Source of the DNA: Candidatus Woesearchaeota archaeon
Lineage (GTDB): Archaea; Nanobdellota; Nanobdellia; Woesearchaeales; UBA11576
Length of the DNA stretch: 12,932 nucleotides
Assembly (NCBI GenBank): GCA_030591125.1
Contig: JAUVBP010000010.1
Location: forward strand, 1 to 12,932
Direction of reading: 5' to 3'
This document shows positions 4,108 through 12,525 of this stretch, one piece after another (positions within the stretch are counted from its first letter, which is position 1; every line of letters begins with the position of its first letter). Under the pieces are notes generated by a model. The model made no database searches. It had not been told where the DNA came from and saw only the letters and a program-made list of their open reading frames with translations. Both the position numbers and the translations under genes were made by a program.

Positions 4108-5319
4108 CTATTCCTCAAAGACATTCTGCACTTCAACCAACACCCTCCTTTCATAATCTGACACTTTCTCCCCTTCATCTTTCTCTGTGTCAAGCACATT
4201 CATCAGGGTCTCAACAAGAGCTTTCTCTTCCTGCACGTCAAGCTCCAATGAACGTATCTGACCGACGTGCTCTTCGATGACCGACCGCTCTGCCTCTTCT
4301 GCACTGTCAGCCTTGACTTTTATCTCTTCAAACTCCTTTGATGCGAGCTTGCTCGTGTTCTTCATCACAGAATATGCTTTTTTTCCATGGAGGGTCTCAA
4401 TCACTTTGCTCAGGTCTATCTCAGAAGTCTTGCCTGAATCCAGTTTTCCGTATAGCCTCATCAGGACGATAGAATCCTTGACGCTCTTGCTCATCACCTC
4501 ATCAAGCAGGAGTTCTGTCGCTTGCTGCGGAGTCTTATTGGTACAGTCAAGACTCATGGTGATGACTGGAGCGAGAGCTATCTTCTGATGCGCAATCTTC
4601 CCCTCATCATAGATGTAGTACCCGCCACACCCGAGTTTCTCAAGCTCTGAAAAACTGTTCGGGAATGTAGGCCCGGGATAGGCGATCTTCTTGTACCCTT
4701 CCATGCTTGCCTCTTTGACTATATGGACGTGTCCTCCTGCATAATAATCAAACCCGCGCGGAAGCAATGATATCGGTGCGGCTTCCATCTTGGCCAGCTC
4801 TGCTGGCTTGAGTTCTGCAATTGCTGTGTGGAACATGAATATCTTGAATCCCTGTTCCTGCTCAAGGTTCTTCGTGACAAGGCCTTCATAGTGTGACTTC
4901 TCAAGCATCCCTTTCTTCCCTATCATGCCAGTTATCTTGGCACCAGTCTTGGGGTCGACAGTAAAATTGAGCTCTAGTTTTCCTTCAACTGATCTGCCTC
5001 TGCACACATTCTTGACAAGATCAGCCTCTTCCAGCACTTCAAGCATGGTCTTGCCTGAAGGTGAGAAATCATGGCTTCCTGCAATAGTATACACAGGTAC
5101 ACCTGCATCCTTGAGACGCTTGAGCTGGGTCACTGCGACCTTCAGGCTCTCTATAGGCGGCAGGCTGGTATTGAACAGGTCTCCTGCAATGAGGACGAAA
5201 TCAACATTTTCAGCAAGTGCACAGCCCATGACAGTGACAAAGGCCCTTGTACTGAGGTCCCTCATCTTAGGGTCTCTCCAGCTCCCCAGGTGGATATCTG
5301 CCATATGGATGAATTTCAT
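4108..5319 (-). CDS. mre11: Mre11/SbcD-like DNA repair nuclease, 403 aa
   Basis: A calcineurin-like phosphoesterase of the Mre11/SbcD family, which processes DNA double-strand ends together with Rad50, using two Mn ions. Motifs in order: DIHLG (D8, H10), AGDLF (D47), AGSHD (H83), FHTAI (H164) and GGHVH (H197, H199). The usual third motif is GNHD; here Ser82 replaces the metal-bridging Asn. The capping domain covers about residues 205-300. The C-terminus from about 330 is acidic and helical, with an E/V/L-rich end where Rad50 contact would be expected. ATG at 5319 directly precedes the first strand (MKFIHMADIHLG), so the start is secure. No rad50 follows it: the next gene downstream is convergent. 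The family call is firm; partner and exact specificity are open. It stands alone as a minus-strand transcript divergent from the acidic 157-residue protein. Confidence 0.92.
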   Translation of the reverse strand: MKFIHMADIHLGSWRDPKMRDLSTRAFVTVMGCALAENVDFVLIAGDLFNTSLPPIESLKVAVTQLKRLKDAGVPVYTIAGSHDFSPSGKTMLEVLEEADLVKNVCRGRSVEGKLELNFTVDPKTGAKITGMIGKKGMLEKSHYEGLVTKNLEQEQGFKIFMFHTAIAELKPAELAKMEAAPISLLPRGFDYYAGGHVHIVKEASMEGYKKIAYPGPTFPNSFSELEKLGCGGYYIYDEGKIAHQKIALAPVITMSLDCTNKTPQQATELLLDEVMSKSVKDSIVLMRLYGKLDSGKTSEIDLSKVIETLHGKKAYSVMKNTSKLASKEFEEIKVKADSAEEAERSVIEEHVGQIRSLELDVQEEKALVETLMNVLDTEKDEGEKVSDYERRVLVEVQNVFEE

Positions 5320-5374
5320 ATCAGAGAATAATGCCTGCTTGTTCTTTAATCTTGCTCCAGCAGGCCAGTAAGAC

Positions 5375-5382
5375 TTATAAAG
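5375..5382 (-). promoter_or_regulatory. Possible TATA box of the mre11-like gene
   Basis: On the minus strand CTTTATAA, about 60 bases before the ATG at 5319, giving a leader near 33 bases with no clear SD. A weaker ATTAAAG (complement of 5343-5349) would instead give a leaderless mRNA, so the choice is uncertain. Confidence 0.4.
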
Positions 5383-5389
5383 CTCCGAA

Positions 5390-5460
5390 TTTAGGTGTTT
5401 TGAGACCTAAAGCACCTGTTTTACACTCCAGAGCAGAATAAAAACATTTAAATACCTAAA
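5390..5460. promoter_or_regulatory. Three ACCTAAA motifs and an alternative hairpin between divergent promoters
   Basis: The 7-mer ACCTAAA occurs inverted at 5390-5396 and direct at 5405-5411, making a stem with an 8-base loop, and direct again at 5454-5460, where it runs into the TATA box of the 157-residue gene. A second, mutually exclusive pairing joins 5393-5401 (AGGTGTTTT) with 5409-5417 (AAAGCACCT), nine pairs including one G-T. The element lies outside both predicted transcripts, so it is better read as a protein-binding site than as an RNA structure. Confidence 0.4.
5446..5454 (+). promoter_or_regulatory. TATA box of the 157-residue gene
   Basis: ATTTAAATA predicts a transcript start near 5476. 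The GTG at 5486 would lie only 10 bases into the mRNA with no SD, whereas the TTG at 5513 is preceded by a six-G run at 5500-5505. Confidence 0.55.
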
Positions 5461-5512
5461 TACTCAGTTAATTGAACATTCATAAGTGACGAAACTTTCG
5501 GGGGGAACGTTT

Positions 5513-5986
5513 TTGAGCAATATTGATACAAATAAGGATAATCTTGCAGACATATTATTCGATGAGCTTTGTAGACCTATAGACACTGATGTAGACCACA
5601 TAAGATCAGTCAGGTATGATGAAGCGCTGATAGTTCTGAACTACATGCTTAAAGAGTACTCAAAAGCAGAAGATGCTGGAGAGACCAGCGAATATATGCT
5701 TCCCGCGGAGTTCACACCACAGGACAGGATGAAAGACCTTTTTGAGATGTCTCTGAAGAAAGAATATGATTGGGACACTGAAACAGAGACCACCAAACAC
5801 AAGAAGTGCAGCATCGTTTACACGAACCTAAGACACATATCTGATGGTTACAAAGCGACCCTTTCTGAAAAGATAGAAGATATAGACACACTCATACATG
5901 AAGGACTGAACAATCAATGTGCAAGCCATGGCGGAAGGCTTGACAGGGCCATAAGTTCCGATGATAAGTTTATTGAGCAGAATTGA
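5513..5986 (+). CDS. Hypothetical acidic protein, 157 aa, TTG start
   Basis: Not recognised. It is soluble, acidic and mostly helical: residues 5-60 are D/E-rich (DNLADILFDELCRPIDTDVD, then YDEALIVLNYMLKEYSKAED), residues 70-90 contain PAEFTPQDRMKDLFEMSLKKE, and the C-terminal third has two more helices (EKIEDIDTLIHEGL). It has three cysteines but no metal-binding spacing. The TTG start is preferred because GGGGGG (5500-5505) sits 7 bases before it; the alternative GTG at 5486 would add nine residues and has no SD. It lies divergent to mre11 and runs into the GGDEF-like gene with a 16-base convergent gap. Whether it works with Mre11 or the GGDEF-like protein cannot be told. Confidence 0.7.
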   Translation: MSNIDTNKDNLADILFDELCRPIDTDVDHIRSVRYDEALIVLNYMLKEYSKAEDAGETSEYMLPAEFTPQDRMKDLFEMSLKKEYDWDTETETTKHKKCSIVYTNLRHISDGYKATLSEKIEDIDTLIHEGLNNQCASHGGRLDRAISSDDKFIEQN

Positions 5987-6002
5987 CCGCCTGGCAGGAT
6001 TC

Positions 6003-8708
6003 TCAGGTTATCTTATTGTCCAGACTATGGATCCCGCCACGACCTTTTGTCTTTCTGATATGCTCTACCATATCATTCATGGCTTTTCTCAGGGTCTTCA
6101 CGTCTGAGGCATTGCTATGCATTATCTTTGTTCTCCCGAAACCGGCGTAGCCCATAGTGAACCCTATACGTATCACCCTGCCAGTATCCAACCTCGAAGA
6201 CACTCCTTGAACAGTCTTCTTGACAGTCTCACGGAATAGCATATATGCTATCTTGAACTTCATAGGGCCAAAAAGGTCTGCACCATTCACTTCTCTTGCG
6301 CCATCAAGGAGCTTCCATCTGCTGAAATCATTGACGTTCCTGTTCGGCGACATCTTGATCGTGAACAGGCCACCAAAAAAGCTCTCCTTATTTTCAGGAG
6401 TCACCCGCACATGCGATTTTTGCTGGACCTCCGTAGATGCATGTTTAGAGTTATCGACATAAGCGATTGTCCTGTTCTTATGGAGACTGTTACGGATGTG
6501 TCCCTCCATGACTGCCTTATCTTCGATAAGATAAGGTATCCAGTCGACAGTCCGCACATTATCTATCTGAAGCGCTTCATCACCTCTGCTTATGAGAGAA
6601 TCATTGATGCTCTCAAGGAACCTAAGATGATCTTTCTCACTGACTATCCCTCGTTCCGAATGTAATGGATAGCTTACCCATATCTCATCACCCTGTTTGG
6701 TCATCCGCAGGCTTAACTTATGCTCTTCAGGGACATCTGCATTGAGGGTCTCATCAAATTTCGTGAATACCAGCTTGAGGAGAGAATGATAATACTTATC
6801 CTGTGCATCAGGCTTGTAGAGTCGATTGAATGCGTTGAACCCGTCCACTTCTATGAAAGTCATGACTTGAGGTCCCTCTACCAGCATCATCTTTGTAAGG
6901 ATCTCATCATATGCATCTTCCCTCAGTGCATTTATGAACCTCAATTCATAGCTCTTGGCAAGATGTCTCTTCTGGAGGACCGATATGTAGAACTGTTTCT
7001 TCAGCTCGCGCAATTTACGTGAATCATCGGCACTCATCTTGCCATCTCTCTTGAGGTCTCTTGCAGTCCTGAGAAAATCCATGAAACCTTCAGTCAGGTG
7101 GTGATCCATGCCTATCTGGTGCGCCACCCTGTTTATCATGATGCCCTCAAACTCATCTTCAGGGATGTAGTTTGTCCCAAGAAGTACAGGATCGACCTTC
7201 CAATCATATAGTAGGACAACAGGATATCTCTTCGCAGCCTCTGATACTATCTCTTTATCCTGCTTTTCAAATATAGGATTAGGGATTCTGGGGATGCCCG
7301 ATTGCCGACGCCTCTTGGATACATATTGGATAAGTTCATCCCTCATCTTAGGATATATTGTCTTCTCAAGATACTCTGCTTTTGCAGAAGCAGACTTTAC
7401 TGCACCATCTATCTCCATGGAGATCCTCTTCTCGATGATCTTTATATCTGCAAGAAGGTGTTCCCGGGTCACTCTCCCCTCGATACCCTTCGGAGCATCA
7501 GGGGTCTGCAGGTTCATATAGTCAACAGGAGAGAAATTCATCGCCTCGACAGCTGACCTGAACTCCTGCCTAAGGGAGCCTATAGATATCTCATGATACC
7601 CTGCAAGCATCACAGTATTCAACTGCTGGAAACGCACTTGATCCCGCAGATTCCTGAATCTGCCCCCTTCCTTCGCGACCAACAGTTTACGGATTTTTTC
7701 AGGAAGCTCGGCCAATGCTGGCTCAAGCTCGGATTTCGGGACACCGACTATCTTGAAACGTGTCCTTCCAAGTATGGTTACCACACCTTTACCCTCTATG
7801 ACACTGCCTTTCTTTTTGGATCCTGTCTTGGTAAAATCTCTCTTGAACCGGTTATTGAGCTCAGTATAGCAGATCTCGATCAATGCATCACCGAGTTGGT
7901 GTGAACCATCAAGGTTATTGCAGGCAGTCATATCTATGTTTATCAGAGCGATAGGTATCTTATTCCCGAGTTTCTTGATCTCCTCAGTCCCTTGTATATA
8001 GAGATTAAGAGCTAGCTCTGTCCCTAATTGTGAAGCACGTTCATTGTCAGCGAACTCTGCGTGGTAGATGTTAAGGAGCTTCCTTATATCATCTTCAGCC
8101 TTATCTAGTTCATCATCGCTTACGCTTTCCAGCCTAGAGATAAGCTCTTCAATCCTTGTAGTGACTAGCTCCCAGTCATGCCAGAATGGTTTGACATGCT
8201 GTAGAAGGGCATTCTCTGTCTTGGTGAGTTCACGCAGATCCAGTTCAGAATATGCCTGCTGTCCTGCACCTTTATTCTTGAGATCATCAAGTATCTTCTT
8301 CTGTTCCTGTAGGTCAAGATGCAGCTTACGGAGAAACCCAAGTATACTGTCAACGTCAAGCTCTGCCTTGGCCACAAGATCCCCTGCATCACCTGCAAAT
8401 CCAAAGTGAGATTTGACAAGTTCGCTGTATCGCGTATGCTTGGTTACACTTACACCATTATCACGTATATCAGATTCCTGCTTGTTTATGAGTTCGGCAA
8501 TATTTGAGAGCAGCTTTAGCTGTGAATCGACGATTTCACAGGTATTTCTGAACTGTTCTTCCACATATTTTATCCGACCCTTATTGAACTCTCCTGTCCA
8601 ATCCATAGAAAGTATGCTTTTTTTCCGATTGAGCATACTATTAAACTGATCGACCAGAGTCACAAGCACTGCTCTTTTTTCTATCTCTGCACGTCCAAAT
8701 TTACGCAT
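6003..8708 (-). CDS. Large protein with two GGDEF-like (nucleotidyl-cyclase palm) domains, 901 aa
   Basis: No named family is recognised, but two palm domains can be aligned by hand to diguanylate cyclases. Residues 1-245 are helical and probably coiled-coil. Domain 1 (about 250-380) has D259, N265, H270 and G273-D274 at exactly the GGDEF-family spacing, but the signature is GRTRF (314-318) and the first metal Asp is Asn257. Residues 380-610 are a mostly helical linker with a basic patch (SKRRRQSG). Domain 2 (about 615-901) has E620, D622, N628, D637 and QGDEI (672-676), then about 165 residues, then RIGFTMGY and KGRGG (888-892), matching the C-terminal SxG and K-GR parts. Domain 2 could be active, domain 1 not. 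No transmembrane helix or sensor domain is visible. Start: ATG at 8708 fits a leaderless mRNA (TATA 8731-8738); a GTG at 8777 would add 23 residues but lies upstream of that TATA box. It follows herA on the same strand with its own promoter. Confidence 0.85.
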   Translation of the reverse strand: MRKFGRAEIEKRAVLVTLVDQFNSMLNRKKSILSMDWTGEFNKGRIKYVEEQFRNTCEIVDSQLKLLSNIAELINKQESDIRDNGVSVTKHTRYSELVKSHFGFAGDAGDLVAKAELDVDSILGFLRKLHLDLQEQKKILDDLKNKGAGQQAYSELDLRELTKTENALLQHVKPFWHDWELVTTRIEELISRLESVSDDELDKAEDDIRKLLNIYHAEFADNERASQLGTELALNLYIQGTEEIKKLGNKIPIALINIDMTACNNLDGSHQLGDALIEICYTELNNRFKRDFTKTGSKKKGSVIEGKGVVTILGRTRFKIVGVPKSELEPALAELPEKIRKLLVAKEGGRFRNLRDQVRFQQLNTVMLAGYHEISIGSLRQEFRSAVEAMNFSPVDYMNLQTPDAPKGIEGRVTREHLLADIKIIEKRISMEIDGAVKSASAKAEYLEKTIYPKMRDELIQYVSKRRRQSGIPRIPNPIFEKQDKEIVSEAAKRYPVVLLYDWKVDPVLLGTNYIPEDEFEGIMINRVAHQIGMDHHLTEGFMDFLRTARDLKRDGKMSADDSRKLRELKKQFYISVLQKRHLAKSYELRFINALREDAYDEILTKMMLVEGPQVMTFIEVDGFNAFNRLYKPDAQDKYYHSLLKLVFTKFDETLNADVPEEHKLSLRMTKQGDEIWVSYPLHSERGIVSEKDHLRFLESINDSLISRGDEALQIDNVRTVDWIPYLIEDKAVMEGHIRNSLHKNRTIAYVDNSKHASTEVQQKSHVRVTPENKESFFGGLFTIKMSPNRNVNDFSRWKLLDGAREVNGADLFGPMKFKIAYMLFRETVKKTVQGVSSRLDTGRVIRIGFTMGYAGFGRTKIMHSNASDVKTLRKAMNDMVEHIRKTKGRGGIHSLDNKIT

Positions 8709-8730
8709 GATGTTGATATGCCCTATAGAA

Positions 8731-8738
8731 TTTATATA
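8731..8738 (-). promoter_or_regulatory. TATA box, leaderless GGDEF-like gene
   Basis: On the minus strand TATATAAA, centred about 27 bases before the ATG at 8708. This decides the start in favour of 8708 rather than the upstream GTG at 8777. Confidence 0.6.
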
Positions 8739-8751
8739 GTTTCTGCAAAAG

Positions 8752-8766
8752 TGACGCAAAACGTCA
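8752..8766. promoter_or_regulatory. TGACG-N5-CGTCA inverted repeat upstream of the GGDEF-like promoter
   Basis: TGACGCAAAACGTCA has perfect 5-bp half-sites with a 5-bp spacer. It lies about 14 bases upstream of the TATA box on the minus strand, a place where archaeal activators or repressors can bind. The site also lies in the 20-90 bases between the herA stop and the GGDEF-like start. Confidence 0.35.
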
Positions 8767-8797
8767 AGAAAAATCACTAAATGATATCAATAGGGTA

Positions 8798-10333
8798 TCA
8801 ATCCAGCCTCACACCGTCAAAAGCAGGGGATGATTCTGCCTCATCGGGTCGCGTCTGTTCAGTATACTCCTCGAACAGAGGTATCTTTATCGGAGTCGCA
8901 AATTTCACGAAATTGCTTGTCACCAGCGCCTCACCCTTATCAAGCGAAGCTATGTTCCGGTCATCCTGCGAAAGATCCTGGGAAGCAGATTCGATTATCG
9001 CCTGGCGTTCAGGTTTCATCTCAGTGCCGAGGATTATCTTGGTATTCATATTGGCAAGTATCTCTCTAGGTATCAGTGAAGGCAGCTGGGTTATGGCCGT
9101 CAGGCCGACCTTGAACTTCCTGCCTTCTCGTGCTATCGTACTGAATATATTAGGGCCTGATTCCAGGACTTCTTTTCCCAGCACTCGCGGCGCCTCTTCA
9201 AGTATTATCGATACCACAGGTTTATCATCCAGCTGGCCCTTGGATTTATACCTCTTGTACCTATTGAACACTTCTGAAGTGATCATGCTGCCTATCATTA
9301 TCTCCACAGCCCCACTGAATCCTGATGTATCGACTATGACCGTCTTGCCATTCTCAACATCATCTGCCATGTCATTTATGGTCGCTTCCCCTGCAGAAAG
9401 GTCAAACACACCATTGCAGGACAGCCTATCCCCCTCAGACTCAAGATTGAGGAGATGTGACAGCCTACGCTTGAGCACACCTACTGTCGCCTCATGGAAG
9501 TGGAATCCCTGATTGAGCTCCTTCTCAAGTATTACTGCTTCAACCCACTTATTGCCGTACTTCTTATAGAACGCATTCATCGCCTGCACCTGTGGGTCAG
9601 AGAAACTGACTGCACCCTTAAAATGCTCAGGCCTTACCTGCCTAAGGTTTATCTTCAATGTACATGTGCCGGGCGGAGGGTCTCTAGGAGTGTAATATGA
9701 CACGCGGTCAGGATCAGGATGGTCTTTCAACCCTCTGCCATTCCGACCATAATACTCATCATGAGGGTCCAGGACAACAACACCACAATAGTCCTTATCG
9801 ACTATGCTCCAGAGCATGACCTTGACCAGGTTGCTCTTGCCTCGTCCGGTAGTCGCTGTAAGAAGGACATGATGCGAGAATACCTTATCACCAGGTAGGC
9901 TTATCGGCACTTCCAGCATCTTCGAACCTGACCGAAGATTCCCAAGATAGACCGGTCGGGCAGGTGCTGTCATGAAACGAAGGTCGGCCTCTTCTACCTG
10001 CCTCACTTCACCGAAGAATATTGGCAGCTGTTTGCAGAGCTGCACGTTGCCTCCTGCAAGGACTGCGATAGGCTTTGCATGAGCGATGGTGTAGTTGCGC
10101 ATGTTCGCGTCAAAGAAAGATACATCAGTACCATCTTCCAGGTTCATCCCGGATACCAGTTCAAGATTTGAAGATGATATCTGGCTGCCATATGTGAGGT
10201 CATACACCTGCAACAGGGATTTTTGACAGCCATCACCGCATATGAGAAGCTCCCCTATCTCAAGCTGCTGCTCAGACTTCTGGCGTATGCTTATCCTGCC
10301 TAGCTCTCCACCGACTATCTGACCTTTTATCAT
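8798..10333 (-). CDS. herA: HerA-type ATPase / DNA translocase, 511 aa
   Basis: HerA is a hexameric FtsK/HerA-superfamily motor that moves along duplex DNA and works with NurA and Mre11-Rad50 in archaeal end resection. Residues 1-120 form the beta-barrel HAS domain. Walker A is TTGRGKS (161-167). A second conserved strand is [10 protein letters not shown] (186-194). Walker B is [13 protein letters not shown] (373-385), with E379-E380 as the catalytic acids; HerA often has EEAH, here Pro replaces His. The sensor/arginine region is [11 protein letters not shown] (400-410), followed by [11 protein letters not shown] and NTKIILG. The C-terminal tail from about 492 is acidic and probably disordered. 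Start ATG at 10333 fits a leaderless transcript with the TATA at 10355-10362. It is upstream of the GGDEF-like gene on the same strand. No nurA is seen. The superfamily is certain; true HerA function, rather than another DUF87-type ATPase, is likely. Confidence 0.92.
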
Positions 10334-10473: not shown

Positions 10474-10917
10474 TTATTTCTTCTTGGCCTTTTTCTTGAC
10501 TGCTTTTTTCTTCTTGGCTGGCTTCTTCTTGGCTACTTTCTTCTTAGCCTTCTTCTTGACAGTCTTTTTCTTGGCTTTCTTCTTAGCTGGCTTCTTCTTG
10601 GCTACTTTCTTCTTTGCCTTCTTCTTAGCCGGCTTCTTCTTGGCTGCCTTTTTCTTGACAACCTTTTTCTTTGCCTTCTTCTTTCGCTTTGCTCCGCCTC
10701 GGACCATCTTTGCGCAAGCGATATCGCCCTGCTTGTCGATGAAGTACAGGTAACCTGACTCCTTCTTCACGCCGACCTTTGCAACTTTCTTGGTCTTGCC
10801 TGCTTTCCTGCCCTTACCACGGGACATCTTTGCACAGGATACGTCACCTTGTTTATCGACGAAGTATAGGTATCCTGACTCTTTCTTGACTCCAACTTTT
10901 GCAACTTTTTTTGCCAT
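10474..10917 (-). CDS. Lysine-rich histone-H1-like chromatin protein with duplicated domain, 147 aa
   Basis: Probably a DNA-compacting nucleoid protein. Residues 3-33 and 43-73 are near-identical copies of one unit, differing at only four positions (V/I, V/I, S/A, S/V); each contains ESGYLYF, DKQGD and CAKM, which reads as a small beta unit with one Cys. Residues 76-147 are an extremely basic K/A/P tail built from KKKPAKKK and AKKK repeats, like eukaryotic linker histone tails and bacterial H1-like proteins. It is not a histone-fold protein: no HFD helices are visible. The start is very firm: AAAGGAGGT (complement of 10927-10935) lies 9 bases upstream, the best SD in the window. A 120-base structured leader and a long T-rich terminator suggest strong, controlled expression. 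The chromatin role is inferred from composition. Confidence 0.85.
   Translation of the reverse strand: MAKKVAKVGVKKESGYLYFVDKQGDVSCAKMSRGKGRKAGKTKKVAKVGVKKESGYLYFIDKQGDIACAKMVRGGAKRKKKAKKKVVKKKAAKKKPAKKKAKKKVAKKKPAKKKAKKKTVKKKAKKKVAKKKPAKKKKAVKKKAKKK
10517..10614 (-). repeat. Internal repeats coding the K/A/P tail
   Basis: A 29-base sequence is identical at 10517-10545 and 10586-10614, 69 bases (23 codons) apart, within a longer stretch of imperfect repetition from about 10474 to 10690. In-frame repeats like this allow tail length to vary by slippage or recombination without frameshift. Confidence 0.8.
10699..10911 (-). repeat. Tandem duplication of a 40-codon unit
   Basis: Codons 3-33 (10819-10911) and 43-73 (10699-10791) encode the same 31-residue unit with four substitutions and a 120-base period. 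The copies differ at many third positions, so the duplication is not very recent and both copies are kept by selection at protein level. Confidence 0.85.
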
Positions 10918-11196: not shown

Positions 11197-11907
11197 TTAC
11201 CGTCTGGCCCTATAGTCCTTTGAGGTCTCGATACGGACCAGCTCGCTGATCTCCTGTCGGGATAGTGCACAACCATGCAGCTTTACACCCCATAAGAGTG
11301 AGTCGACCAGAGTCTTGTCAGCATCCTCACCATCAGGAAGATACTTATTCAGTATTCCGTGCTCATAGGCGACCATCACCAGCTCAACAGATCGTATTAC
11401 CTTTATGTTCTTCAGCCAATTCTTGACCTTGGCGAGATTCTGCTTGTTTATCGATACCTTGACCCTGACCTTACGCTCAAGCATCTTAGCTATCTGTTCA
11501 GGACACTCGACCAGCAGCTTTGTTGTTCGCTCATCTATGGCAACTGCTGAAGAATTCATCACTATTGCAGTCGCCAGCACCTCCATCTCTGCATAGTGGA
11601 CTATTTGCACCCAATTGCCCTTGCTCTTGAAAGTATGGTTTGCCAGCTCGAGCAGCTCCTCTGCAAGCATCCGGATCTTGGGTGTCTCGATGACATTGAG
11701 CACTGCATTACGTATCCGGAACACGACCTGAAGCGCCTCGAACTTGAATCTCCTTGAATGGATTGGCCGGTCCACCAGCTCACCTTTCACCGCTCGAGGT
11801 ATATAGAAATCCCCTTCAAAGATATCCTTGAGGTAATCAAGGGTCCATAATAGGTTATTTGTAGTAAGGCTTATTACTGGTCCAGCATCGAATACTATTG
11901 ATTTCAT
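11197..11907 (-). CDS. PIN-domain protein, probable RNase, 236 aa
   Basis: PIN domains are Mg-dependent ribonucleases, often toxins or RNA-processing enzymes. The N-terminal motif is SIVFDAGPVISL with D7; then IPRAVKGELV with E43; then AEMEVLATA with E107 and E109; and AIDERTTKLL with D125: the acidic set expected of a PIN active site, in order. Residues 140-236 form an extra C-terminal helical region (KVKNWLKNIKVI, then DKTLVDSLLWGVKLHG) not present in short VapC toxins of about 130 residues. The ATG at 11907 is preferred because AGGT lies 10 bases upstream; the ATG at 11916 adds three residues but has the SD only one base away. It follows the HTH gene by 29 bases and surely shares its mRNA. 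Toxin versus housekeeping RNase is undecided. Confidence 0.82.
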   Translation of the reverse strand: MKSIVFDAGPVISLTTNNLLWTLDYLKDIFEGDFYIPRAVKGELVDRPIHSRRFKFEALQVVFRIRNAVLNVIETPKIRMLAEELLELANHTFKSKGNWVQIVHYAEMEVLATAIVMNSSAVAIDERTTKLLVECPEQIAKMLERKVRVKVSINKQNLAKVKNWLKNIKVIRSVELVMVAYEHGILNKYLPDGEDADKTLVDSLLWGVKLHGCALSRQEISELVRIETSKDYRARR

Positions 11908-11936
11908 TTTGATCATGACCTATCTGATGAGCCGCA

Positions 11937-12503
11937 TCATCTCGGCGTGAACAAGGACCTGGCAAACCTGAGCCTCTCAGCCACATCAGACTTATGTTCT
12001 ATCTCATCATGTATCCTTGTCTTCCCTATATAGTTGAGCAGCTCCCATTGTCCTATCCCAAAAAGGTCAGCGACCCGGGCAACACTGATCCCTTGCGCGT
12101 ATATGCTGCTCCCTTTCTTTATCTGAGCCTTCTCTATCACCTTCTCGACATATATCTTTGACTCTTTCTCTACAGTGGATATGAACTCAAAAAGGTTCTT
12201 CATCTTTTCCCTATACTCAAGGACCTCATCATGCTCAACAGAGAACTGTGCACTTCCGAGCAGGACCCGGGCCTGTTCAGCATGCTCCGAGTCAAAACCC
12301 CATCTCTCAAGAAGCTTGGATATGGCATAGAGTATCACTGCCAGAGAAAGCGAATCCTCATCCTGGTATATCGTCAGGTTATGGACTGCATCATCACTTA
12401 TTGACTTGAGTTTCTTGGAGTCCCCACTGTTTATGTACCTCTGGGACTTCTTGAGAATCCTGACAAGGTCTTTCTTGACCGCCTTAGGAACCGCCTCTTT
12501 CAT
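11937..12503 (-). CDS. HTH-containing helical protein, partner of the PIN gene, 188 aa
   Basis: No named family is recognised. Residues 1-130 are helical, with ILYAISKLLERWG near 58-69 and a charged coiled-coil-like stretch near 95-130. Residues 139-162 (ISVARVADLFGIGQWELLNYIGKT) read as a helix-turn-helix: short helix, turn at G-I-G, and recognition helix. The C-terminus is basic (ERLRFARSLFTPR). Placed directly upstream of a PIN gene in the same transcript, it could be the DNA-binding antitoxin and autoregulator, though it is larger than usual VapB proteins. The start is ATG at 12503: the TATA box at 12526-12533 is about 27 bases away, giving a leaderless mRNA; an in-frame TTG at 12509 would add two residues. 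Confidence 0.75.
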   Translation of the reverse strand: MKEAVPKAVKKDLVRILKKSQRYINSGDSKKLKSISDDAVHNLTIYQDEDSLSLAVILYAISKLLERWGFDSEHAEQARVLLGSAQFSVEHDEVLEYREKMKNLFEFISTVEKESKIYVEKVIEKAQIKKGSSIYAQGISVARVADLFGIGQWELLNYIGKTRIHDEIEHKSDVAERLRFARSLFTPR

Positions 12504-12525
12504 AGTCAAAACCCTGGTTTCAGCG

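Follow-up and report, generated by a model that had tools for sequence, protein, structure and literature searches.

A divergent protein of Woesearchaeota with two probable GGDEF-type palms in one chain

The tandem-palm gene and its relatives

The stretch of DNA analysed here, called the window in the following, comprises 12,932 nucleotides of a Candidatus Woesearchaeota archaeon (assembly GCA_030591125.1, contig JAUVBP010000010.1). In our numbering, in which G, C and L stand for genomes, contigs and loci, it is contig C51 of genome G000, which amounts to 1.31 Mb in 226 contigs and is 67% complete. On its minus strand the window carries a gene (ATG at 8708, stop at 6003) for a protein of 901 amino acids, which with a probability of about 0.9 contains two palm domains of the GGDEF type, the first degenerate and the second with conserved acidic residues, as judged from profile matches, the order of the matching segments and conservation. 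A preliminary description of this DNA had already proposed such a tandem-palm protein. The frame and the residue numbers were checked: the open reading frame is present, on a strand that the description had not named, and all residues cited are in place (N257, D259, N265, D274, GRTRF 314-318, E620, D622, N628 and D637), as are the C-terminal motifs QGDEI (672-676), RIGFTMGY (847) and KGRGG (888).

Full-length orthologs with 50, 48 and 45% identity are encoded in G001, G002 and G005, respectively (144 genomes including G000). A scan of genome contigs gave three loci, which are the same orthologs, one from a Nanoarchaeota archaeon and two from Candidatus Woesearchaeota archaeon. With a profile of the four long sequences three relatives of a shorter type were found within the same archaeal order, namely in G009 (596 amino acids), in G338 (618 amino acids) and, cut off by the end of a contig, in G136. 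Conversely, a search that started from the two complete short proteins returned the four long proteins with E values of 1e-6 to 3e-5. Each of the two order-wide profile searches matched 8 of 352 genomes, of which the same seven were accepted in both, the eighth being G180 with the long-type query and G189 with the short-type query. Not accepted were the weak matches in G054 and G180 (both interrupted by stops), in G164 (38 profile positions) and in G189 (a frame of 10,066 residues), and a sample of 371 genomes of the phylum added only the unconfirmed 38-position match in G164. Within the genomes searched, the family is limited to two taxonomic families of one archaeal order. The comparisons below are based on seven sequences for domain 2 (four long, two short and the G136 fragment) and on six for domain 1. 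The open frame and the putative active site are retained across orthologs that are 45–50% identical and also at 24–30% identity over domain 2.

In the long type a helical N-terminal region (residues ~1-225) precedes palm 1 (240-345), a linker (346-595) and palm 2, which is in two parts (596-706 and 845-893); in the short type palm 1 stands at the N-terminus and is followed by the linker and palm 2. In the AlphaFold2 model of the window protein residues 11–170 are mainly helical, with blocks of predicted local distance difference test (pLDDT) values of 65–87 and one block of 52. In agreement with the preliminary description, no receiver or PAS domain was matched in the 901-residue protein (Pfam) and no membrane segment was found, the highest 19-residue Kyte-Doolittle mean being 1.05. 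Neither Pfam nor NCBIfam assigns a family name to the protein, and the 2023 copy of PADLOC does not match it. Sequence searches of the PDB with three profiles gave zero, one and one row(s), the rows being chance. The family was matched neither in viral contigs (three alignments, each via two peptide patterns) nor in phages and plasmids (tblastn), and no publication on it was found in one open-access library.

Profile matches and conserved residues

GGDEF domains of the conventional kind occur widely in the order, with PF00990 matches in 25 of 39 genomes including that of the window, and a profile was therefore built from 25 such domains. The 25 were drawn from 34 GGDEF loci, of which L004 and L005 were left out for their altered signatures, L006 because its protein was represented by another match, and L063 and L065–L069 for their shortness; L003, although altered, was kept. 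The three loci L003, L004 and L005 lie within 6 kb on G000:C53 and have the signatures DTNSF, AENEF and DSDEF. Aligned with this profile by HHalign, domain 2 matched over 105 columns at 93.6% (score 46.0, E = 2.1e-7 as calculated for one comparison) and domain 1 over 88 columns at 45.9% (score 28.6, 2.1e-4); the preliminary description had proposed a profile comparison of both segments, and both give GGDEF matches. None of 200 column shuffles was as good for either domain (best shuffles 21.9 for domain 2 and 22.7 for domain 1), nor was any of a second set of 200 (best nulls 26.6 and 23.9). Each type taken alone also beats 200 of 200 shuffles for domains 2 and 1, the long type with scores of 31.1 and 23.3 and the short type narrowly, with 26.8 and 23.5 versus best nulls of 25.8 and 23.4. 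Domain 2 of the window protein does so even as a single sequence (score 24.7).

When full-length profiles were compared, with no region specified beforehand, the three best sub-alignments of the long type paired residues 597-705 with GGDEF columns 16-107, 242-289 with columns 21-71 and 846-891 with columns 121-158. Those of the short type paired 397-488 with columns 29-101, 5-54 with 16-68 and 536-589 with 119-160. The first of each is strong alone (31.8 long, 30.9 short) and the others are weak singly; for example, 846-891 scores 20.2, with order and columns correct. The weight of the full-length result lies in the agreement of position and order across two diverged types. Among 17 gene families of these loci the tandem-palm family ranks first against the GGDEF profile (31.7, next 20.8). 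In blastp against the seven family sequences, L002, a conventional GGDEF protein from the genome of the window, finds domain 2 of G005 together with the helix upstream of it (26.6% identity over 139 amino acids, E = 5.6e-5) and the same region of G002 (0.012) and G001 (0.026). L002 (G000:C30, a frame of 523 amino acids) is itself a second tandem-GGDEF protein: a strong GGDEF-bearing domain comes first and a weaker match of 26.9 bits without GGDEF second, which is the reverse of the order in the tandem-palm protein. Two-domain matches are also present in G001:C58, G002:C25, G003:C22 and G007:C49.

In palm 2 E620-V-D622 is aligned with the strand-1 motif D-x-D and N628 with the Asn of GGDEF domains; D637 falls on the final Asp of GHxxGD, and G673-D674-E675 corresponds to G-[DE]-E. 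All seven predicted active-site columns (E620, D622, N628, D637, G673, D674 and E675) are invariant in the seven sequences. These positions had been named from one sequence before any alignment was made, and variation of the Asp/Glu at 620, 622, 674 and 675 had been named as what would speak against the proposal. Among the 87 shared columns 15 are invariant; for those with Asp, Glu, Asn or Gly in the window protein the number is 8 of 22, which gives P = 4.7e-5 for the seven active-site columns. All seven family sequences carry the pattern [DE]-x-D-x5-N-x8-D-x(20-60)-G-[DE]-E, compared with 14 out of 20,000 shuffled versions of the window protein and 0 of 67 control open reading frames (ORFs). 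The hairpin signature is QGDEI in the four long-type sequences and LGDEL, LGDEF or MGDEM in the others, with G-D-E as the common core; GG[DE]EF does not occur in domain 2 of any family member. We take the counterparts of N628 and D637 in PleD to be N335 and D344. The insertion that the preliminary description had noticed in palm 2 is present but is somewhat smaller than the ~165 residues given there, namely ~140 residues (705 to 846) in the long type; in the short homologs it has ~47.

Palm 1 lacks the acid at the first metal position and those of the hairpin, with D259 remaining; the Asp two residues past the first metal position (D259, and D622 in palm 2) is retained in all sequences. Its hairpin has the form GRT[RK] in all four sequences of the long type, and the hairpins LGSKL and LGGKI of the short homologs were matched by eye, MAFFT placing them elsewhere. 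The triad D259/N265/D274, to which the preliminary description had drawn attention, exists in the window protein but is unique to it: position 265 is Thr, Ser or Ile in three orthologs and position 274 is Asn in one. It should also be noted that 3,653 of 20,000 shuffles carry one such triad (D, N at +6, D at +15) and 324 carry two. The motif D-x-T-x-x-N, with Asn at +5, is retained in all six domain-1 sequences and is likewise common by chance (2,497 of 20,000 shuffles, 4 of 67 control ORFs). Domain 1 is therefore called a palm relative because of the profile evidence and not because of the triad.

Several observations weigh against a synthase with two GGDEF-type palms. No Pfam or NCBIfam GGDEF model matches the family, PF00990 being absent from the window protein and its six homologs (one a fragment), and the six PF00990 matches in the genome of the window all lie outside the tandem-palm gene. 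Domain 1 of the window protein as a single sequence is equalled by 5 of 200 shuffles, and blastp with L002 does not detect the window's own domain 2. In a plain hidden Markov model (HMM) of the same GGDEF domains the window protein scores 3.6 bits, with 17 of 1000 shuffles as good, and is outscored by 3 of 67 control ORFs, one of which, at 63.4 bits, is presumably a true GGDEF protein. In the same test the shuffles as good number 2 (G001), 14 (G002) and 42 (G009) of 1000, yet 719 for G005 and 951 for G338. A first profile comparison with five GGDEF domains had given only 2.5% and 0.8%. The first metal residue of palm 2 is Glu in 7/7 sequences (Glu620), where diguanylate cyclases have Asp; the strand-1-end acid is described as nearly always Asp in this superfamily, which makes Glu unusual (PMC2904730, available excerpt). 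The AlphaFold2 models of the window protein and of a short homolog are both of low confidence (mean pLDDT 45.2 and 45.6), and for the short homolog Foldseek shows little preference for GGDEF domains over Thg1, adenylyl cyclases, IS200 transposases and other ferredoxin-like folds. For the window model, by comparison, 8 of the first 9 rows are chains of GGDEF proteins or class III cyclases (DgcZ with E = 3.4e-3), at low TM-scores. Domain 2 is modelled there with a strand (614–620), two helices (625–631 and 638–655), two strands (668–672 and 675–681) and a helix (691–705), and the palm order strand-helix-helix-strand-strand is correct in both models at a pLDDT of 45–46. Because both models are of low confidence, the palm fold is named here as putative.

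Genomic surroundings

The coordinates of the gene, of its parts and of its neighbours are given in Table 1.

Table 1. Features of the tandem-palm locus; positions refer to the window and residues to the 901-residue protein.
Feature	Position	Strand	Remarks
Tandem-palm gene	6003..8708	-	Stop included; ATG start aligns with starts of three orthologs
Putative palm 2, first part, residues 596-706 (through helix after beta hairpin)	6591..6923	-	HHalign 93.6%; 597-705 pairs with GGDEF columns 16-107
E620-V-D622, predicted metal ligands, end of strand 1	6843..6851	-	Invariant 7/7
N628 and D637, predicted guanine-base contacts	6798..6827	-	Invariant 7/7; assigned by analogy with PleD
QGDEI 672-676, hairpin signature	6681..6695	-	G673, D674, E675 invariant 7/7
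Insertion within palm 2, residues 707-844	6177..6590	-	Separates 597-705 from 846-891, which both match GGDEF
Putative palm 2, last strand and helix, residues 845-893, RIGFTMGY and KGRGG	6030..6176	-	846-891 pairs with GGDEF columns 121-158
Putative palm 1, degenerate GGDEF-like domain, residues 240-345	7674..7991	-	HHalign 45.9%; full-length profile match 242-289
N257-I-D259	7932..7940	-	First metal position Asn or Ser in 6/6; D259 retained in 6/6
GRTRF 314-318, at the place of GGDEF	7755..7769	-	Without acidic residue in four long-type sequences
Helical N-terminal region, residues 1-225, long type only	8034..8708	-	AlphaFold2 model; 596- and 618-residue homologs begin with palm 1
Inter-palm linker, residues 346-595	6924..7673	-	Conserved NYxPExEFEG and QKRHLxKSY stretches; no Pfam match
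TATA-box-like actatataaa	8731..8740	-	~30 bases before ATG; pattern match only
HerA-type helicase gene, upstream	8798..10333	-	89 bases away; Pfam DUF87 3e-27; NCBIfam HerA 1.5e-29, far below model cut-off
Mre11/SbcD-type nuclease gene, downstream	4108..5319	-	Pfam Metallophos 2e-13; NCBIfam Mre11 3e-29, below model cut-off
Small convergent gene, up to 166 amino acids, between palm gene and mre11	5486..5986	+	No Pfam match

An in-frame GTG upstream of the ATG would yield 924 amino acids; the orthologs begin at the same ATG. In all four long-type genes a TATA-like sequence stands at −28 to −31 of the ATG, and a promoter of their own with a leaderless or near-leaderless start is possible.

In each of the four long-type genomes the gene is enclosed by herA and mre11, of which the latter is known in G005 from its first 32 codons at a contig end. 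The palm gene follows herA directly in the window and in G005; two or three small ORFs intervene in G001 and G002. A homolog of the small convergent gene also stands beside the palm genes of G001, G002 and G005. In G004 and G008 herA and mre11 are contiguous without the palm gene, in G003 other genes occupy the place, and the locus of G006 has no herA. The space between herA and mre11 (window 4108-10333; L013, L015, L086, L087, L088 and L089) looks like a variable slot that takes up cargo and can be empty or be filled by the palm gene, with or without small ORFs, or by other genes. As for the short type, the gene of G009 is divergent from mre11, and that of G338 is followed by a gene for 150 amino acids and then by convergent genes for ArlJ, ArlI and ArlH (NCBIfam; ArlJ below cut-off; L023:1243-7895 on G338:C5). 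In G136 a similar gene for 143 amino acids comes after the fragment and is followed by the end of an ArlJ-like frame (by eye). No neighbour is common to both types in all genomes. The herA/mre11 setting of the long type and the archaellum setting of G338 differ, and this therefore suggests a link to DNA ends in one lineage that is not shared by the other. The possibility that the palm gene stands in for NurA was discarded, because NurA matches are present elsewhere in G000, G001, G002 and G005.

Farther from the palm gene, the minus strand of the window encodes a protein of 147 amino acids (10474-10917) that contains two repeats of the VAKVGVKKESGYLYF type and ends in a tail rich in Lys and Ala, which we take to be histone-H1-like. 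Six of the seven related loci have its gene upstream of herA or mre11. On the same strand, a putatively PIN-like protein (no Pfam match) and its neighbour are encoded at 11197-11916 and 11937-12509, and both are present in all seven loci reaching there.

Relation to known systems and possible function

With GGDEF domains (PF00990; PleD, DgcZ) palm 2 shares the strand-1 acids, the Asn at +6, the Asp at +15, the GDE hairpin, the late strand and the KGR-like end, all in the same order. It differs from them in that it remains below the Pfam gathering score, has Glu at the first metal position and has the signature [QLM]-G-D-E-[IFLM], and the family differs further in having two palms per chain, the first degenerate, the insertion of ~140 residues and no recognised sensor domain. 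In the wide sense of the GGDEF superfamily, that of significant profile similarity over the domain, both palms belong to it. Cas10 likewise unites two palms in a single chain, of which one is degenerate and the other bears the acids. The preliminary description had seen this arrangement echoed here, and the parallel holds as an analogy of architecture, a degenerate and an acid-bearing palm being combined in a single chain. In sequence the match is to GGDEF and not to Cas10: the hairpin is GDE rather than GGDD, and the one Cas10 sequence that was fetched matches at 0.6%. The setting outside CRISPR that had been proposed agrees with the Cas10 palm-2 model finding no match in 12 genomes and with the Pfam scan of the ten window proteins, in which neither an HD domain nor a cas gene was found. 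The family is best filed, from its profile matches, as a divergent relative within the GGDEF superfamily, outside PF00990 and not Cas10.

Two other groups of palm proteins should be considered in this context. mCpol/OptS of the Panoptes system is a nucleotide-making palm that is related to GGDEF and Cas10 and works outside CRISPR (PMC12657218, available excerpt). The palms described here appear to have the same relationships and also lie outside CRISPR. However, mCpol is described in that excerpt as a minimal single-palm tetramer with the effector OptE, whereas the present family has a two-palm chain of ~900 residues and no such neighbour was found: the nearest genes are those for HerA, the small unnamed protein and Mre11. 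MK0296 of Methanopyrus kandleri represents archaeal GGDEF relatives without signalling domains (PMC2904730, available excerpt), and by this description alone the family resembles them in being archaeal, GGDEF-like and devoid of signalling domains.

On homology and conservation, the likeliest reading is an active nucleotide synthase with one live palm, which we regard as about as probable as not. Such a synthase would use palm 1 (~240–345) as a structural half and probably as a second nucleotide platform. Palm 2 (596-706 and 845-893) would bind two metals through E620/D622 with D674/E675, and N628 and D637 would position GTP, as do the guanine readers of diguanylate cyclases. A second nucleotide, bound where palm 1 and palm 2 meet, would then attack the GTP through a hydroxyl, so that NTPs, preferably GTP, would be joined or cyclised to give a small signalling nucleotide. 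Access may be gated by the helical N-terminus and the insertion of palm 2. Cas10 chemistry, too, proceeds with one live palm. In GGDEF and Cas10-type enzymes serine reads adenine and asparagine reads guanine (PMC12657218, available excerpt). N628 is taken as the guanine-reading Asn, and GTP is therefore the likelier, and probably the preferred, substrate. It counts against this reading that a PilZ receptor was not found in 12 genomes, that no sensor domain was recognised and that the two types have no neighbour in common throughout; what speaks for a signalling role is homology.

Alternatively, the protein could be a sensor without catalytic activity, the palms binding GTP or a cyclic dinucleotide from the conventional GGDEF proteins of the cells and switching a partner, with the change from Asp to Glu marking the loss of synthesis. 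We regard this as possible, though rather doubtful. Glu in place of Asp in all seven sequences and the degeneration of palm 1 are what a sensor would be expected to show, and with conventional GGDEF domains in 25 of 39 genomes of the order its ligand could be at hand. G005 and G009, however, carry the palm gene without a PF00990 match (both genomes are incomplete), and the strand-1 acids and the GDE hairpin are invariant over domain-2 identities of 24–61%, which exceeds what binding alone usually demands.

The neighbourhood of the long-type gene could instead point to a polymerase of nucleic-acid ends or a nucleotidyltransferase with Thg1-like palm chemistry, which, together with HerA and Mre11, would act on DNA ends without producing a signal. 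Thg1, a 3'-5' polymerase, has an RRM-type palm with a strand-1-end acid and an acid dyad in the hairpin preceded by a small residue (PMC2904730, available excerpt), as palm 2 has; the position between herA and mre11 in 4/4 genomes, the short-type gene beside mre11 in G009, a weak match of domain 2 to one archaeal Thg1 (71 columns, 7.1%, P 0.005) and Thg1 chains among the Foldseek rows of the short homolog can all be read in this way. We nevertheless consider such an activity unlikely. The GGDEF match is far stronger (93.6% versus 7.1%, albeit for a 25-row profile versus a single sequence), and the palm of the family is duplicated, with one copy degenerate. PF04446 (Thg1) matches only 2 of 351 genomes, that of the window not being one of them, and no Pfam model matches the protein. 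Moreover, herA stands next to mre11 with no palm gene in between in G004 and G008, other genes separate the two in G003, the G338 homolog adjoins archaellum genes, and the long-type gene has its own TATA-like box. That the motifs are coincidental and the fold unrelated is highly improbable in our view: the low-confidence models, the lack of a curated family match, the frequency of the triad in shuffles and the marginal plain-HMM test would be in keeping with chance, but not the profile–profile results with their shuffle, family and sub-sample controls, nor the fact that two diverged types of homologs independently give the same three segments.

GGDEF proteins have been reported to be nearly absent from archaea, with later database matches in Asgard and DPANN groups (PMC8646023, available excerpt), and no study of the DPANN proteins was found in one open-access library. 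The observation from which the preliminary description started is real and was missed by the curated models. The family would thus represent a divergent archaeal branch of GGDEF proteins that the standard model overlooks and that combines a degenerate and a conserved palm in one chain, as Cas10 does. It is distinctly improbable, although worth stating, that it is a single-chain, Cas10-like nucleotide-signal synthase of Woesearchaeota that evolved from GGDEF palms without a tie to CRISPR, uses GTP and is linked with the processing of DNA ends by HerA and Mre11; this would make it a counterpart in role, but not in descent, of DisA, the bacterial DNA-integrity enzyme. If active, the protein would be a directly testable nucleotide-signal enzyme of archaea and a second example of a homodimeric cyclase turned into a one-chain enzyme.

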